Origin: a virus
DNA length: 43,480 nt
Virus record (IMG/VR): IMGVR_UViG_3300034175_000205
Location: 1-43,480 of that record
Strand: one strand, 5' to 3'
In this document: positions 278 through 36,899 of the stretch, one piece after another
How positions within the stretch are numbered: the stretch's first letter is position 1
Layout of the letters: every line of letters starts with the position of its first letter
Position numbers and translations under genes: made by a program
Notes under the pieces: model-generated
Told to the model about the DNA's origin: nothing
The model's input: only the letters and a program-made list of their open reading frames with translations
The model's database searches: none

Positions 278-511
278 TCAGCCCCAGCCGCGCACGCCGT
301 CCAGCTTTTGTGGGCGCTCGCCGCACTTGATGCACCGCAGATGCGCGGACAAGGTGGCGAAGTCGTCCGCCCAGCCTCGCGCCTGGAACATGGCGAGCAG
401 CGGCCGGGCCGGCTTGTTCTCGATGCGACCGCACCGGCAGATGATGTGGAGGTTCCACCGATCCTCGACCAGTTCGGACAGCGACGCGGGCGGTGGCTTG
501 CGGCGGGACAT
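278..511 (-). CDS. Small zinc-finger-like protein (77 aa)
   Basis: The protein has one CxC pair (IICRCGRIENK, about residues 25-27) and one CxxC pair (LRCIKCGE, about 59-62). This arrangement suggests a single structural zinc site in a nucleic-acid-binding or adaptor protein. Small phage proteins of this appearance are common, but I cannot assign a function. The ATG at 511 lies 16 bases from a GTTC-N7-GTTC LexA box shared with the divergent HTH gene at 558, so it may be SOS-induced. No strong Shine-Dalgarno sequence is visible, so the start is likely but not certain. Confidence 0.6.
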   Translation of the reverse strand: MSRRKPPPASLSELVEDRWNLHIICRCGRIENKPARPLLAMFQARGWADDFATLSAHLRCIKCGERPQKLDGVRGWG

Positions 512-522
512 CGCGACTCGAT

Positions 523-551
523 TTGAGAACAGAAGCGGAACGCCCTATGCT
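523..551 (+). promoter_or_regulatory. Promoter of the HTH gene, leaderless
   Basis: TTGAGA (523-528) is followed by a 17-base spacer and TATGCT (546-551), a good sigma-70 type match. The expected transcription start, about seven bases after the -10, coincides with the ATG at 558, so the mRNA would have little or no leader, as is known for some phage repressor transcripts. Confidence 0.6.
527..541 (+). promoter_or_regulatory. LexA box (GAAC-N7-GAAC)
   Basis: GAAC at 527-530 and GAAC at 538-541 are separated by exactly seven bases. On the minus strand this reads GTTC-N7-GTTC, the known LexA operator of alphaproteobacteria. It covers the end of the -35 and the spacer of the rightward promoter and lies just upstream of the leftward gene starting at 511, so LexA could repress both. 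Confidence 0.7.
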
Positions 552-557
552 CGCGGC

Positions 558-1010
558 ATGGACGAGTCGGCAAGCCCCCAATCCTGCTATGCCACCCCTG
601 CCCCGCTCGGGCCCGAGGAGGTGCGCGCCAAGGTCGCTGCAACCGCCGCCGCGCGTGGCGAGAGCCTGACCGCGGTGTCCGAGGCTCTCGGGCGCAACCC
701 GGCCTACCTCCAGCAATATATCAAGCGCCGATCACCCAAGGTGTTGCCAGAGGACGCGCGCCTGGCGCTCGCGCTTTCACGATATGCCTGGGATTGCGTC
801 CCGCCGCATTATCAGCATGATAGGCTCGATGATGCTATTTGTGACGCGCGGGATAGGACGACTGGTAAATCTCCTGAAATCGCTCAGGACGCCGCCGGAC
901 CTGTGCCGGGCATGTCGGGAGCCGCGCGAGAAGCTCGACAATCGGCGCTTCTGCGAGTCCTGCACCGACGAACATCTCGCCTGGTGACGCGAGGCCGCGC
1001 GCTTAAGTAA
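558..1010 (+). CDS. Repressor-like helix-turn-helix protein lacking its C-terminal domain
   Basis: Residues about 18-76 form a Cro/CI-type DNA-binding domain; the stretch ALGRNPAYLQQYIKR is the recognition-helix region seen in S24/LexA-like repressors of Sphingomonads. After ALALSRY (about residue 75) similarity to such repressors stops and the rest is low-complexity sequence. No S24 catalytic Ser/Lys region is present. The downstream part also overlaps, in another frame, a better-looking small zinc gene (784-987). I infer an HTH-only derivative made by a deletion or junction near base 780. The ATG at 558 sits at the predicted transcription start, under a LexA box. It could act as a competitor of a full repressor. 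HTH assignment is firm, role is not. Confidence 0.6.
   Translation: MDESASPQSCYATPAPLGPEEVRAKVAATAAARGESLTAVSEALGRNPAYLQQYIKRRSPKVLPEDARLALALSRYAWDCVPPHYQHDRLDDAICDARDRTTGKSPEIAQDAAGPVPGMSGAAREARQSALLRVLHRRTSRLVTRGRALK
784..987 (+). CDS. Small CxxC/CxxC protein overlapping the HTH frame
   Basis: This 67-residue frame ends with DLCRACREPREKLDN and RFCESCTDEHLAW, two CxxC knuckles that look like a genuine zinc ribbon. The N-terminal half is basic and hydrophobic. Codon third positions are more GC-rich here than in the overlapping HTH frame, which favours this frame as the coding one downstream of base 784. No Shine-Dalgarno sequence precedes the ATG, so it may be a remnant or the C-terminal part of a longer protein joined out of frame to the HTH. 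Confidence 0.45.
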   Translation: MPGIASRRIISMIGSMMLFVTRGIGRLVNLLKSLRTPPDLCRACREPREKLDNRRFCESCTDEHLAW

Positions 1011-3689: not shown

Positions 3690-4034
3690 TCAGGCGGGCG
3701 TGACGGGCACGGGATCAGCGTCGTCGTTGACGATCGTCGCTTTGACTGGGCCGGACGGCGTGGCGGCGAGCGCCTCGCGCGCGAGGTCGACCGTCTTGCC
3801 CAGATTGACCGACCGGGCCGCGTCCAGGTCCTGCGCGCGCGTGTCCCCTGCCTTGCTGGCATAGTGGTAGGCGATGATGCCGCCCGCGAACCCGGACAGC
3901 TGGCCGAGCATGTAGGTCACGAGGTCGCGGTTCGCCTCGGGGATCGGCACGACGAACAGCGCCGCCAGCGCGCCCAGAAAGCCGGTGATCAGCGCGGCGC
4001 CGATGACGTTGGCGAACAGCCGCGCCTGCGTCAC
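3690..4034 (-). CDS. Putative holin, two membrane segments (114 aa)
   Basis: The protein starts at GTG 4034, which overlaps the stop of the endolysin gene (GTGA); no other start fits. Residues about 5-29 (ANVIGAALITGFLGALAALFVV) and about 40-58 (MLGQLSGFAGGIIAYHYAS) are hydrophobic segments joined by a short polar loop, followed by a charged C-terminal tail. Size, topology and position directly after the endolysin suit a class II holin, which permeabilises the inner membrane to release or activate the endolysin. There is no holin-specific motif, so the call rests on topology and context. Confidence 0.6.
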   Translation of the reverse strand: MTQARLFANVIGAALITGFLGALAALFVVPIPEANRDLVTYMLGQLSGFAGGIIAYHYASKAGDTRAQDLDAARSVNLGKTVDLAREALAATPSGPVKATIVNDDADPVPVTPA

Positions 4035-4543
4035 GCCTCGTTCCTCGACAGCGGAACCCCCGCCCGCGCCGAGAGCTGCACCGGCCCGCCGATCACCGGC
4101 TGGCCGATCGGCCACCGGCTGGCGAACAGCCGGTCCTTGGCGATGCGGGTGACGGTCACCGCATCGCCCTGGTTGCCGCCCAGGACGTGATACGCAGCCG
4201 CGTCCTCGCCCACATAGAAGCCGACATGCCCCCCGCCCTGGCGCTCGAACACCAGCACCGCGCCGGGCGCGAGCCGGTCGGGGCGCAGCCGCGCACCCCA
4301 GGTTGCCCAGCTCTTCGCGCGAACCGCGATCGACACGGGCGCGATCCCGACCTCGTGGAAGCACGTCGCGACGAACAGGCCGCACCAGGGTACGCTGTCC
4401 GCGTTGTATGCCATCCCGACGATCTTCGACCCGAGCCGCTTGGCCCAGCCCATGATCGTCGACGAGTTCGCGGACCCGGCCGCCTCGCGCGTGCCGAGCT
4501 TCGCCCGCGCGGCCAGGAGCCACGCCGGTTCTTTCGCTGCCAT
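4031..4543 (-). CDS. Endolysin, TIGR02594/CHAP-like peptidoglycan hydrolase
   Basis: This 170-residue protein matches the TIGR02594 family (NlpC/P60-CHAP fold). The nucleophile region is VPWCGLFVATCFHEVG (Cys about residue 54), followed by the conserved AVRAKSWATWG, the histidine in GGHVGFYVGED (about 111) and the family signature VLGGNQGDAVTV. These cut peptide bonds in cell-wall stem peptides. It has no signal peptide, so export must come through a holin. It lies between the two-TM protein (3690-4034) and the single-TM protein (4581-5057), forming a lysis group inside the fibre genes. Confidence 0.85.
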   Translation of the reverse strand: MAAKEPAWLLAARAKLGTREAAGSANSSTIMGWAKRLGSKIVGMAYNADSVPWCGLFVATCFHEVGIAPVSIAVRAKSWATWGARLRPDRLAPGAVLVFERQGGGHVGFYVGEDAAAYHVLGGNQGDAVTVTRIAKDRLFASRWPIGQPVIGGPVQLSARAGVPLSRNEA

Positions 4544-27195: not shown

Positions 27196-27954
27196 TCATA
27201 GCTTCGCTTGTCCGCCCGAGCGCGGCGCGCGTCGGTCGGTGTGGTCAGGGAGCGCAAGAGCACGAAGCCCCAGATCAACTAACCCCGCAGCCGCTTGTGC
27301 GGCGATGTTCTCTTCCTGTACATCATGGGGAGACAAACGCCAAGCCTCGATACGCATCGGGAACGCGCCGCCGAAGTCGACCAAGGCAGAGCGTCCGTCT
27401 CCCTTGATGACCGTACCGATCTTGCCGGTGAAGGCGGGCATCTCACCTATGTCCACCTGATCGCCGGGCTGGAATGTCCGTCGTTCGGCGCGCTGTGCCT
27501 TGCGCCGGGCTCGCTCCGTCTTGAGCGCGGCTATGCGGATGCGTTGCGCCTCCTCCCGCGTGTCCGCGTCCAGCAGGGCTCGCCATGCTTCTGCAGCGCG
27601 ACCCTCCTCGTCGCGCAGTCCGGCCACGTCGCTTCCGTTCACCAGCGGGATGCGTCCGCCATGGCGGAAGATCGAGAATGGTGGATGCGGGCTGACAGGC
27701 TCGGCTGCCGCATAGGCCAGCGCGGAGAGGTGACTCGCGCGGGCGAACACGAAGGTCGGCAGGATCGGGGCGTCGACCTGCACCTTGCGCTCTCCCTTAC
27801 GCCCCTTCTGAAGCACACGGCGGAAGGTCCGGGCGGGCGTCCACACCTCGAACCCCGCCGCCGCCAGCGACCGCGCCAGCGCCAGCGTGCGCGGGCCGCT
27901 GGTGCGCAGGATGCACCATCCCCCTTCCCTGCCCTGATGATCTGCCCGCCCCAT
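27196..27954 (-). CDS. NusG/RfaH-like transcription elongation factor (252 aa)
   Basis: The N-terminal domain (WCILRTSGPRTLALARSLAAAGFEVWTPARTFRR, then DAPILPTFVFARASHL) matches the NGN fold that clamps RNA polymerase. The C-terminal domain (QPGDQVDIGEMPAFTGKIGTVIKGDGRSALVDFG) is a KOW domain. A basic helical linker (about 125-158) separates them. Host NusG is normally far from phages, so this is a specialised paralogue. It is the last early gene but one before the late genes, suggesting a late-gene antiterminator working with the KOW domain on S10 or ribosomes. It could also favour termination of host genes. Confidence 0.85.
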   Translation of the reverse strand: MGRADHQGREGGWCILRTSGPRTLALARSLAAAGFEVWTPARTFRRVLQKGRKGERKVQVDAPILPTFVFARASHLSALAYAAAEPVSPHPPFSIFRHGGRIPLVNGSDVAGLRDEEGRAAEAWRALLDADTREEAQRIRIAALKTERARRKAQRAERRTFQPGDQVDIGEMPAFTGKIGTVIKGDGRSALVDFGGAFPMRIEAWRLSPHDVQEENIAAQAAAGLVDLGLRALALPDHTDRRAPRSGGQAKL

Positions 27955-34509: not shown

Positions 34510-34699
34510 GCTCTTCGCCCCCACGGGGAGGAGGACCAGCATCAGCAAGCCCGCAAGATGCTGTCGACGTGGTTCGGTCGGGCGAAGCCGCTCGCGCCAG
34601 AAAGCCTTCCACTTCCGCCAGAGTGACGCACCCGGCCGTCTGGCGGCCTGCCGACACCGTGAAACCCGCGCGGCCGATGTCTATGCCCGCGATGATCAT
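34499..34699 (-). CDS. Hypothetical small early protein (66 aa)
   Basis: ATG 34699 overlaps the Cro-like stop (ATGA). The N-terminus MIIAGIDIGRAGFTVSAGRQTAGCVTLAEVEGFLARAAS is well formed and the rest is low complexity. GIDIGRAGFTVS is reminiscent of the start of an actin-like/RuvC-type fold but is far too short to be one. No function assigned. Confidence 0.5.
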   Translation of the reverse strand: MIIAGIDIGRAGFTVSAGRQTAGCVTLAEVEGFLARAASPDRTTSTASCGLADAGPPPRGGEEHEA

Positions 34700-34920
34700 G
34701 CCGCCACCTGGGTGTCGGACGCAGGCAGCAACTCAGTCATCTTGAACGCGATGCGTTGCGCCTTCGCCGCAGCGGCGATGGCCTGCCAATGATCGACCGG
34801 GATTTTCTCGCGGCTCTTCCACCCTTGCACCGCGCCCGGCGTGATGCTGAGTGCGCGGGCCATCGGCCGTATGCCGCCGAAGCGGTCGATAAGGGACGTA
34901 ATGGGGCTCTGCTGATCCAT
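34696..34920 (-). CDS. Cro-like regulator, carph-isopro type (74 aa)
   Basis: ATG 34920 (MDQQSPITSLIDRFGGIRPMARALSITPGAVQGWKSREKIP) is the first gene of the leftward operon. The pattern FGG-x(3)-MARAL-x(5)-AVQGWK-x(4)-IP-x(3)-W is the carph-isopro helix-turn-helix common in alphaproteobacterial prophages. The promoter -10 ends only seven bases upstream, so the mRNA is nearly leaderless. It probably acts as Cro, repressing the divergent repressor. Confidence 0.85.
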   Translation of the reverse strand: MDQQSPITSLIDRFGGIRPMARALSITPGAVQGWKSREKIPVDHWQAIAAAAKAQRIAFKMTELLPASDTQVAA

Positions 34921-34922
34921 AA

Positions 34923-34953
34923 ACAGTTTGTACTCACGTCGAATACAAACTGT
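34923..34953. promoter_or_regulatory. Immunity operator with nested inverted repeats
   Basis: TGTACTC-N5-GAATACA (34929-34947) is a 7-5-7 operator. It is nested in a longer perfect inverted repeat, ACAGTTTGTA (34923-34932) and TACAAACTGT (34944-34953). A half-site GAATACA follows at 34965-34971. Confidence 0.65.
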
Positions 34954-34956
34954 CAA
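34927..34956 (-). promoter_or_regulatory. Leftward early promoter (PL/PR-like)
   Basis: Perfect -35 TTGACA (34956-34951), 18-base spacer and TACAAA (34932-34927). The operator lies between the two hexamers. This promoter would drive the early operon and, with antitermination, the late genes. Confidence 0.65.
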
Positions 34957-34995: not shown

Positions 34996-35481
34996 ATGTC
35001 AGACAATACGGATTCAGTCGGGACGCGGCTTTTGCGCCTCAAGAAGCGCAGCGGACTGTCGTTCGAGAAAATCGCGGCCGAGCTAGGGGTGAAGCGGGGC
35101 GGACTGCCCCGTTATTTTCAGCCTGACTACCGCCCCGATGGTACGCTAGCGCTTCCGAAAGCCATTGAGTTTGCGCGCGTGTTCGCCGGCAGGGGAAAGC
35201 CGCCCATCACCCAGGACGAGGTCCTCGCGCTGACCGGGCTTCCTGAGGTCGAGATGTCGGACGAGGTCGCCGCGCCTCTCACTCTGCCCGTAGCCACGGC
35301 AATCGTCGATGTCCTGGGCCGCATTATTCTAGGAGGCCAAGAGCCTGCGCCCGGTGGGGTCGTAAGCGCCGCGCAAGTGCTACGAGACTTGTCCGAAGTG
35401 TATCGATCCGCGCCAGAAGCGCGGGGCGATCCTGCTCAGACGCGCGGCGTACTTCTTGCTCTAACCCAACGATCTGGCTAG
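34996..35481 (+). CDS. CI-position repressor candidate, HTH without cleavage domain (161 aa)
   Basis: ATG 34996 is divergent from the Cro-like gene; ATG 34963 is an alternative. Residues about 8-60 (VGTRLLRLKKRSGLSFEKIAAELGVKRGGLPRYF) are a helix-turn-helix. The C-terminal 90 residues (EVAAPLTLPVATAIVDVLGRIILGGQEPAPGGVVSAAQVLRDLSEVY) are helical and may dimerise. There is no S24 Ser/Lys region, so RecA-stimulated self-cleavage is not expected. Its 3' end overlaps the opposing PAS gene by 158 bases. I infer it is the lysogeny repressor. Confidence 0.7.
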   Translation: MSDNTDSVGTRLLRLKKRSGLSFEKIAAELGVKRGGLPRYFQPDYRPDGTLALPKAIEFARVFAGRGKPPITQDEVLALTGLPEVEMSDEVAAPLTLPVATAIVDVLGRIILGGQEPAPGGVVSAAQVLRDLSEVYRSAPEARGDPAQTRGVLLALTQRSG

Positions 35482-36028
35482 CAACCGGCCTTAGCGCGTA
35501 CAGCGCTGCCTTGCATTGCGGCGCGCATTCAATGCAGATCGGATAGCACGACGCCGGTCGGACGATGCGCTTCGTCTTAACCGCAACCAGCATGTTGACC
35601 GCGCCGAGCAGCTCGCCAGTGCCGTTGTCGTTCTGATACACAGGCGTCGGGTAGCCCTCTAGGCGAACTCGCGATCCGTCAGCCTTTTGGCCTATGGCTT
35701 GCCCGCGAATCGCGACGCCGTCTCGAACCACTGCCGCAACGGCGCATTCTTCCATAGGCACATGCGCGCCTTCGAGCGTGTAGATGCCGGCCATAATGCA
35801 CCATCGATCTACGCCGAGCCGGGGGATTCGACCCGCAAAGGGCACGCAAGCCGCATTGTAGTAGGTGATATTTCCGTCGGTCCCCACCGCATAGATCGCC
35901 TCGGGCAACCGATCGAGATTGCTCGTCACACGATTTCTGAAAGCATGGACCGCTTGCTCCAGGTACGCGGAGCGAACAGCCTCCAAGGCACTCAACGCAA
36001 GGTCCTCCCTGTGTGACTTCAATAACAT
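35324..36028 (-). CDS. PAS-domain protein under LexA control (234 aa)
   Basis: Starting at ATG 36028, a helical lead (about 1-38) precedes a PAS domain (about 40-150: RLPEAIYAVGTDGNITYYNAACVPFAG, then ADGSRVRLEGYPTPVYQ and ELLGAVNMLVAVK). A cysteine cluster CYPICIECAPQC (Cys161, 165, 168, 172) follows, then a coiled coil (VGLEQEVRRASEQDRPALLARIDTLRTSLVALARRL). No kinase or HTH domain is present, so signalling by protein binding is likely. TTG 36076 is an alternative start adding 16 residues. A perfect LexA box lies at 36083-36097. PAS domains bind ligands or cofactors; the cysteines may hold metal or sense redox state. Confidence 0.75.
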   Translation of the reverse strand: MLLKSHREDLALSALEAVRSAYLEQAVHAFRNRVTSNLDRLPEAIYAVGTDGNITYYNAACVPFAGRIPRLGVDRWCIMAGIYTLEGAHVPMEECAVAAVVRDGVAIRGQAIGQKADGSRVRLEGYPTPVYQNDNGTGELLGAVNMLVAVKTKRIVRPASCYPICIECAPQCKAALYALRPVASQIVGLEQEVRRASEQDRPALLARIDTLRTSLVALARRLRPHRAQALGLLE

Positions 36029-36082
36029 AGCCCACGAACGCGCAAACGCAATCAGCGGAGATTCACAATTCTGCAACTTAGT

Positions 36083-36097
36083 GTTCTACGTATGTTC
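36083..36097 (-). promoter_or_regulatory. LexA box (GTTC-N7-GTTC) before the PAS gene
   Basis: GTTC (36083-36086) and GTTC (36094-36097) are exactly seven bases apart, the alphaproteobacterial LexA operator. It lies seven bases upstream of the TTG and 55 upstream of the ATG, over the likely promoter of the PAS gene. Confidence 0.75.
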
Positions 36098-36152
36098 CAT
36101 TTCTGATGCGCATAGGCAAGCGAAATAATGTTCGCATGGTGAATACGGACTG

Positions 36153-36182
36153 TTGACACTCTGTGTTCAATGCGAATACAAG
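36153..36182 (+). promoter_or_regulatory. Rightward early promoter with immunity operator
   Basis: Perfect -35 TTGACA (36153-36158), 18-base spacer and TACAAG (36177-36182). The operator TGTGTTC-N5-GAATACA (36162-36180) lies in the same place as in the leftward promoter. A half-site GAATAC is at 36141-36146. It would drive the rightward genes from 36225. Confidence 0.65.
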
Positions 36183-36224
36183 GTTGCCAGACAGCGGCGC
36201 CCCGCCGCGCTGGAGACGATCACC

Positions 36225-36899
36225 GTGGCGACACAGCCGATCACCATAGACGAAGAGCGCTGGGCATCCGTCCAGACCCGTGGCCTGGACAAGGGCGATC
36301 ACACGGACCCGGCGGTCGGCATGTGCGCGATGGAGGCGGCGGCGTACATCGCCCGCGAGCCGTTCTCCGATCACCCGGCCTGTGTCGACAAGGCCATCGC
36401 CGCGTTCCTGCGCACCTGGAACGACGCGCTGCCCGACGAGGAGCGCCGAATGCTCCTGCCGCTCATCCCGCTGACCGTCGGCACCGCCGGGAGCGAGAAG
36501 CTCTCCGAGCGCCGGGCGCTGCTGGCCGTCGACTGGTATATCCGCGTCCATACGCCCGCCTGGCTCCGACTGGCGGGCCTGACGAAGCAGGCCGACAACC
36601 TCGCCGCGCTGCCCGCGATTGTCGAGACGGCGCAGATGCCGTCGTTGCGCGGTCCGCTGGAGGCCGTTCGCGATGATGCGTCGGCGGCGTGGTCGGCGGC
36701 GGGGTCGGCGGCGGTGTCGGCGGCGTGGTCGGCGGCGGAGTCGGCGGCGTGGTCGGCGGCGGAGTCGGCGGCGTGGTCGGCGGCGCGGTCGGCGGCGTGG
36801 TCGGCGGCGCGGTCGGCGCTGGATTCCACCCGACGCGATTTGCAGGCGTCGGCGCTCGACCTTGTCGAGCGGATGTGCGCGCTGACCGAAGCCGACTGA
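36225..36899 (+). CDS. Early protein with SAAx tetrapeptide repeats (224 aa)
   Basis: GTG 36225 (VATQPITIDEERWASVQ) has GGAG nine bases upstream. The N-terminal 140 residues form a compact, mostly helical domain (DPAVGMCAMEAAAYIAREPFSDHPACVDKAIAAFLRTWND) found in phage and actinobacterial proteins of unknown role. Residues about 153-200 are twelve tetrapeptides of the form Ser-Ala-Ala-x with x mostly W, E or R. The C-terminus is a short helix. The repeat predicts a long amphipathic helix or solenoid. It is first in the rightward operon. Confidence 0.7.
   Translation: MATQPITIDEERWASVQTRGLDKGDHTDPAVGMCAMEAAAYIAREPFSDHPACVDKAIAAFLRTWNDALPDEERRMLLPLIPLTVGTAGSEKLSERRALLAVDWYIRVHTPAWLRLAGLTKQADNLAALPAIVETAQMPSLRGPLEAVRDDASAAWSAAGSAAVSAAWSAAESAAWSAAESAAWSAARSAAWSAARSALDSTRRDLQASALDLVERMCALTEAD
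36681..36824 (+). repeat. 12-bp tandem repeat inside the coding region
   Basis: Eleven perfect-length units of TCGGCGGCG plus one variable codon (TGG, GGG, GTG, GAG or CGG) and a degenerate twelfth. Copy number changes would keep the reading frame, so the array could expand and contract without breaking the gene. Confidence 0.85.

Follow-up and report, generated by a model that had tools for sequence, protein, structure and literature searches.

How could a prophage respond to DNA damage if its repressor lacks the self-cleaving S24 domain? This question is raised by an IMG/VR virus record of 43,480 bases (67% GC), referred to here as the window. It has no nucleotide similarity to known phages. 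An integrase gene lies at its right end, and genes for head and tail, replication and antitermination are also present. A preliminary description of this DNA had proposed that SOS induction acts here through a separate protein, a LexA-controlled antirepressor of the PAS type encoded opposite the repressor gene. Viral loci used for comparison carry L-numbers, and the searches for related PAS proteins covered viral contigs, INPHARED phages, plasmids and genome contigs.

The PAS gene lies within the immunity region

The following features, all located by sequence, define the region.

34696-34920, minus strand: Cro/YdaS-like gene, the first of the leftward lytic operon (PF15943, 1.5e-06; P22_Cro, 2.6e-06)
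34928-34956, minus strand: promoter PR with OR (-35 TTGACA at 34951-34956, 17-bp spacer, -10 GTACAA at 34928-34933)
34928-34948, minus strand: OR operator, TTGTACTC-N5-GAATACAA, a sequence pattern in the cro promoter
34996-35481, plus strand: CI-type repressor gene, 161 aa, without S24 (N-terminal alignment; no S24 match)
35324-35481, both strands: 158 bp shared tail to tail by the repressor gene and the PAS gene (ORF coordinates)
35324-36076, minus strand: PAS ORF (250 aa if read from the first TTG); probable coding sequence 35324-35995, 223 aa
36083-36097, plus strand: LexA (SOS) box GTTCTACGTATGTTC, an exact match 5' of the PAS gene
36129-36153, plus strand: operator-like repeat OL1 (repeat family D1; 72% identity with OR across 25 nt)
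36153-36181, plus strand: promoter PL with OL2 (-35 TTGACA at 36153-36158, 17-bp spacer, -10 ATACAA at 36176-36181)
36161-36181, plus strand: OL2 operator in the rightward early promoter

Between OR and OL sit the genes for the repressor and the PAS protein, as cI and rex do in lambda. On a reading of the sequence, PR and PL have the same geometry, with the operator placed between a TTGACA -35 element and the -10 element and a spacer of 17 bp. As OR and OL, lying in PR and PL with identical spacing, flank the PAS gene, the latter can be assigned to the immunity region. The operator pattern TTGTAyTC-N5-GAATACAA is expected 0.03 times at three mismatches or fewer and was found twice, as OR and OL2. 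For the Cro/YdaS-like gene, the PF15943 and P22_Cro scores both fall just under the curated cut-off. From the matching operators we infer that the repressor, probably with Cro, acts on PR and PL. The first gene of the rightward operon (36153-36899) encodes a product with repeated WSAAxSAA units.

The repressor gene lacks an S24 domain

Over residues 1-82, the repressor matches the DNA-binding portion of CI proteins of the S24 type, from phi2LM21 as well as from other prophages of Alphaproteobacteria (31-34% identity to the CI proteins of phi2LM21 and L049), and the aligned part includes a 'GRGxPPI...LALTG' stretch immediately ahead of the hinge. AlphaFold2 modelled residues 8-80 as helical with confidence and the C-terminal 79 residues as low-confidence helices. 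The S24 family (PF00717) was matched neither in the repressor nor anywhere in the six-frame translation of the record, while 10 of 14 control genomes were positive. Judged by its sequence, the protein is thus a CI-type repressor that has lost the self-cleaving domain. A single-sequence scan returned no close relatives of it, nor did plasmids contain any.

The closest phage relatives of the window (L008-L025), chosen as the phages whose helicase-methylase most resembles its own, encode an S24 CI in the corresponding slot in most loci, at least a dozen. Likewise, S24 was scored in 24 of 28 loci with a window-like repressor N-terminus. With an S24 CI in most relatives and none here, the immunity module of this phage has therefore been exchanged for one whose repressor does not cleave itself. 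Loss of S24 is not always paired with a LexA-controlled gene in this layout, because no exact LexA box lies near two relatives of the repressor that lack S24 (L105, L120). Sinorhizobium phage phi2LM21 shares the cro-CI layout and the homologous CI N-terminus; however, the S24 domain of its CI is complete, and no PAS gene follows. In L049, a stand-alone S24-like ORF (3778-4137, 119 aa, weak Pfam score) is convergent with a complete S24 CI.

The absence of a cleavage domain and the convergence of the two genes, with 158 bp (35324-35481) shared at the 3' end of the repressor gene, had both been put forward in the preliminary description and are borne out. Codon-position GC across the overlap did not single out either strand as constrained.

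The convergent gene encodes a protein with a PAS domain

The probable start of the PAS gene is the TTG at 35993-35995, eight bases past a GGGAGG Shine-Dalgarno sequence (36004-36009); an ATG at 36026-36028 and the TTG at 36074-36076 are other possible starts. In tblastn, PAS homology begins near residue 23-54 of the long form. The encoded parts are as follows, with residues counted in the 223-aa form.

35582-35905, minus strand: PAS domain, residues 31-138 (tblastn, alignment, AlphaFold2, Foldseek)
35513-35548, minus strand: four-cysteine cluster CYPICIECAPQC, C-x3-C-x2-C-x3-C, residues 150-161
35324-35512, minus strand: C-terminal helical hairpin (AlphaFold2), encoded in part by the stretch shared with the repressor gene

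The PAS domain first described from the sequence alone is now matched by both sequence and fold. It gave tblastn matches to alphaproteobacterial PAS kinases with E-values down to 2e-23 and aligned with six alphaproteobacterial PAS proteins at 38-42% identity. AlphaFold2 predicted a confident PAS fold over about residues 31-138 (pLDDT ~90), for which Foldseek retrieved PAS/LOV-type structures from the PDB (E 1.8e-07); other phage PAS proteins and kinases were distant matches only. Pfam PAS_4 scored 16.4 bits on the window protein, below its cut-off of 23.1. The four cysteines, a possible site for a [4Fe-4S] cluster or Zn, are present as described and sit in a disordered, low-confidence linker (pLDDT <50 at residues 142-157). 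The coiled coil proposed for the same protein stands insofar as C-terminal helices are predicted (residues 154-184 and 190-209; pLDDT ~90 across residues 171-200), but AlphaFold2 arranges them as a helical hairpin.

Two known types of PAS protein were considered and rejected. A flavin-binding LOV domain does not fit, as the NCRFLQ-type motif with the photoactive cysteine was not seen on reading through the protein, though LOV structures are the top Foldseek matches. A VqmA-like PAS-HTH receptor was dismissed for want of a C-terminal HTH, the C-terminus being modelled as the helical hairpin. Correspondingly, the protein matched no HTH family and contains no DNA-binding domain, and a PHROG scan assigned it to no family.

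Alternatively, the PAS gene may be an accessory gene under SOS control whose product targets signalling in the host, for instance by pairing with PAS histidine kinases there, with induction proceeding otherwise, e.g. through gene 558-1010. Several observations are in line with such a role. The protein is most closely related to PAS domains from histidine kinases of Alphaproteobacteria; the annotated ones are multi-domain 'PAS domain S-box' proteins, and in most cases a response regulator gene follows. A search of 2.9 million viral contigs for the PAS family yielded three loci, all of the kinase type (same-family histidine kinases at L095:2-1927, L096:4782-7382 and L097:4908-6056, the first followed by a response regulator). 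The PAS gene has a GC3 of 0.65, compared to 0.81-0.92 in the main genes of the phage, which suggests recent acquisition. Two results count against the protein being an antirepressor. Its homologs were PAS proteins only, with no homology to known antirepressors, and neither a second stand-alone copy nor another PAS-repressor pair was found in viral contigs, INPHARED phages, plasmids or genome contigs, where matches were weak or were PAS domains of larger signalling proteins.

In addition, a second exact LexA box (527-541, minus strand) is located between the divergent genes 278-511 (minus strand) and 558-1010 (plus strand). The latter encodes an HTH-like protein of 150 aa ('NPAYLQQYIKR') without S24 and is a possible alternative SOS trigger, which could be the real one; the former encodes a small CxC/CxxC protein. 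Set against an accessory role is the place of the PAS gene, between the operators and in convergent overlap with a repressor that lacks S24, together with the recurrence of an analogous architecture elsewhere (see below). We therefore regard this explanation as unlikely, and SOS-driven antirepression as the better account of the gene.

An unrelated family with LexA boxes recurs opposite S24-less repressors

If SOS acts through a separate protein in the window, similar arrangements may exist in other prophages. The phrog_32610 family comprises proteins of 75-85 aa, annotated as of unknown function and unrelated to PAS. In each of the first eight loci, a LexA box lies 49-318 bp upstream and the last 50-92 bp of the gene are shared with the 3' end of the gene for a short HTH repressor. 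A broader search returned 41 loci, of which 32 have a LexA box no more than 420 bp upstream and nine have no exact box; S24 was present in none of the 41 facing repressors, whose HTH domains are many and unrelated. After removal of duplicates, 31 of 39 loci had the box, compared to 0.45 expected from the density of the motif elsewhere in the same loci. Loci combining a LexA box with a short S24-less HTH repressor include L166-L206, L126-L133 and L029:3712-3957. On these sequence patterns, phrog_32610 is probably an undescribed family of SOS-controlled partners.

A second, linked family, FFVVQ (~82 aa, 'FFVVQSF..ADxPVQ..S', function unknown), occurs at L134-L165, L033:2469, L053:4156 and L122:5029. 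Its genes have a LexA box 12-113 bp upstream in 26 of 32 loci and mostly face an S24 CI gene with an overlap of 4 bp. Among these 32 loci, 24 had S24 without phrog_32610, seven had phrog_32610 without S24 and one (L141) had neither. Fisher's test on this distribution gave p = 2.4e-6 with loci treated as independent, which overstates their independence as they are related. The simplest reading is that phrog_32610, under LexA control, would do what the S24 domain does in other loci.

The window PAS gene has no homology to phrog_32610 and shares with it the LexA box, the orientation, the 3' overlap and a partner without S24. More generally, the phrog_32610 and FFVVQ loci (alphaproteobacterial prophages, L126-L206) resemble the window in having a LexA box and a gene overlapping a short S24-less HTH repressor gene, but their proteins are unrelated to PAS and the overlaps usually measure 50-110 bp (range 17-134 for phrog_32610) as against 158 bp. 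The proposal that SOS acts through a separate protein thus gains support by analogy, in that an unrelated LexA-box gene occupies the same layout in dozens of prophages and only with S24-less repressors. This suggests that different proteins have filled the same role, with an unrelated PAS protein in the place of phrog_32610 in the window.

The same layout allows for an RNA-based explanation. By transcriptional interference or antisense RNA, a LexA-controlled leftward transcript might lower repressor expression, leaving the PAS protein secondary or dispensable. This would fit the 158-bp overlap with its promoters face to face, and LexA-driven genes also converge on cI where the CI has S24, usually with a 4-bp overlap, so that convergent SOS transcription is general. 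Yet the PAS domain is intact and its sequence well conserved, and conservation is strong among phrog_32610 proteins even though the repressors they face vary, which a purely RNA-based role leaves unexplained. Interference as the main mechanism hence seems quite improbable to us when compared with antirepression by the protein.

Direct binding of phrog_32610 to the repressor is at most a candidate mechanism, because its partners carry many unrelated HTH domains and, outside the overlap, their tails resemble one another no more closely than the HTH parts do. The idea of a shared C-terminal tail co-inherited with phrog_32610 was only partly borne out and is not used as an argument here. The tail of the window repressor does not match those of phrog_32610-type repressors.

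A LexA box is located in the promoter position of the PAS gene

As originally described, the GTTC-N7-GTTC box at 36083-36097 is exact, and it occupies the promoter position of the PAS gene. Chance alone would give about 1.0 exact GTTCN7GTTC match in the window; two are observed, and 30 of 100 shuffles contain at least two. The motif alone is therefore weak evidence. The narrower form GTTCTN5TGTTC, picked post hoc, is expected 0.01 times per window and was found once, at 36083-36097. What makes the box credible is its promoter position together with the LexA boxes found 5' of analogous genes in related prophages, where boxes in the corresponding slot reach about 50-100 times the background density. 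Against a position weight matrix built from rhizobial-type boxes, the spacer of the window box fits poorly (score of -1.8, where known boxes range from -3.3 to 12.7). At its two ends, the spacer has the same bases as the boxes in relatives L008, L013, L014, L017 and L027.

That the box is a chance match, with the PAS gene constitutive or otherwise regulated, e.g. as a lysogenic-conversion or exclusion gene in the rex position of lambda, would accord with the background expectation, the atypical spacer and a scan for a consensus sigma-70 promoter that found none, but is very unlikely given the promoter position, the density of same-slot boxes in many relatives and the spacer bases shared with the phage's own clade. 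We infer that LexA binds at 36083-36097 and that the PAS gene is SOS-induced.

LexA boxes also lie ~27-30 bp ahead of a gene at L008:13125, L013:14530, L014:15413 and L017:15671. The boxed gene of L008 resembles the NusG-like antiterminator of the window, and those of L013, L014 and L017 encode different proteins. The window antiterminator gene (27196-27954) has no comparable LexA box.

SOS induction may proceed by PAS-dependent antirepression

Because the phrog_32610 layout recurs, and does so only with S24-less repressors, SOS-driven antirepression is the best reading of the PAS gene. Taking the sequence evidence together, we consider SOS induction by PAS antirepression, rather than by repressor cleavage, to be the best explanation of the locus and hold it with moderate confidence; by analogy, the PAS gene probably triggers prophage induction. 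Based on the observed anatomy, homology, absence of S24 and recurring architecture, we propose a model in which LexA binding, repressor binding and induction are predicted steps. In the absence of damage, LexA would repress the PAS gene, and the S24-less repressor, probably with Cro, would act on the PR and PL operators. Upon DNA damage, cleavage of LexA would release the PAS gene and PAS protein would be made. This protein would most likely inactivate the repressor, whereupon PR and PL would fire; transcription running antisense into the repressor gene may contribute.

More tentatively, the locus may be a two-input switch, in which LexA sets the synthesis of the PAS protein while its ability to inactivate the repressor is gated by the PAS domain, the four-cysteine cluster or both. 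We consider this extension doubtful. If true, one antirepressor, the first of a PAS class, would combine DNA damage with a metabolic or redox signal.

Relation to known antirepressor systems

Tum of phage 186 is a LexA-controlled antirepressor. Its logic, and that of the N15 antirepressor, is like that proposed for the window, but proteins and layout are unrelated. In the Gifsy prophages, SOS induction leaves the repressor uncleaved and works through the GfoR/GtgR repressors and the LexA-controlled antirepressors GfoA/GftA (Lemire et al. 2011, PMC3121763), and an antirepressor of a non-cleavable repressor, belonging to the SOS regulon, is likewise cited for N15 (in PMC10432266). Gifsy and the window have in common a short repressor without cleavage domain and a separate gene with a LexA-controlled promoter. 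However, in Gifsy the antirepressor unit is distant from the immunity region, whereas the candidate in the window, a PAS protein of ~223 aa, is encoded inside it, convergent and overlapping.

A phage PAS protein is also tied to induction through antirepression in vibriophage VP882, where the PAS receptor VqmA switches on the antirepressor Qtip (PMC8284805). VqmA is a PAS-HTH activator responding to DPO; in contrast, the window protein lacks a DNA-binding domain and is itself the candidate antirepressor. The earlier statement that no PAS-type antirepressor is known has to be narrowed accordingly: PAS proteins acting in induction are known, but VqmA itself is not an antirepressor. Full-text literature searches returned no paper combining a PAS domain, prophage induction and an antirepressor, and no description of the convergent, overlapping layout. 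LexA-controlled antirepression is already known (Gifsy, N15); what appears to be new is the use of a PAS protein and the layout with convergent, overlapping genes.

An SOS-driven gene that faces the repressor gene and ends inside it may represent a common wiring by which prophages of Alphaproteobacteria are coupled to DNA damage without a cleavable repressor. With the PAS version, SOS and a second signal would converge on a single protein, and each gene pair is small and directly testable. LexA boxes are further found 5' of a small 'FIVVPP...' family at L110:5130, L035:1183 and L121:7233, near or facing the repressor operon.
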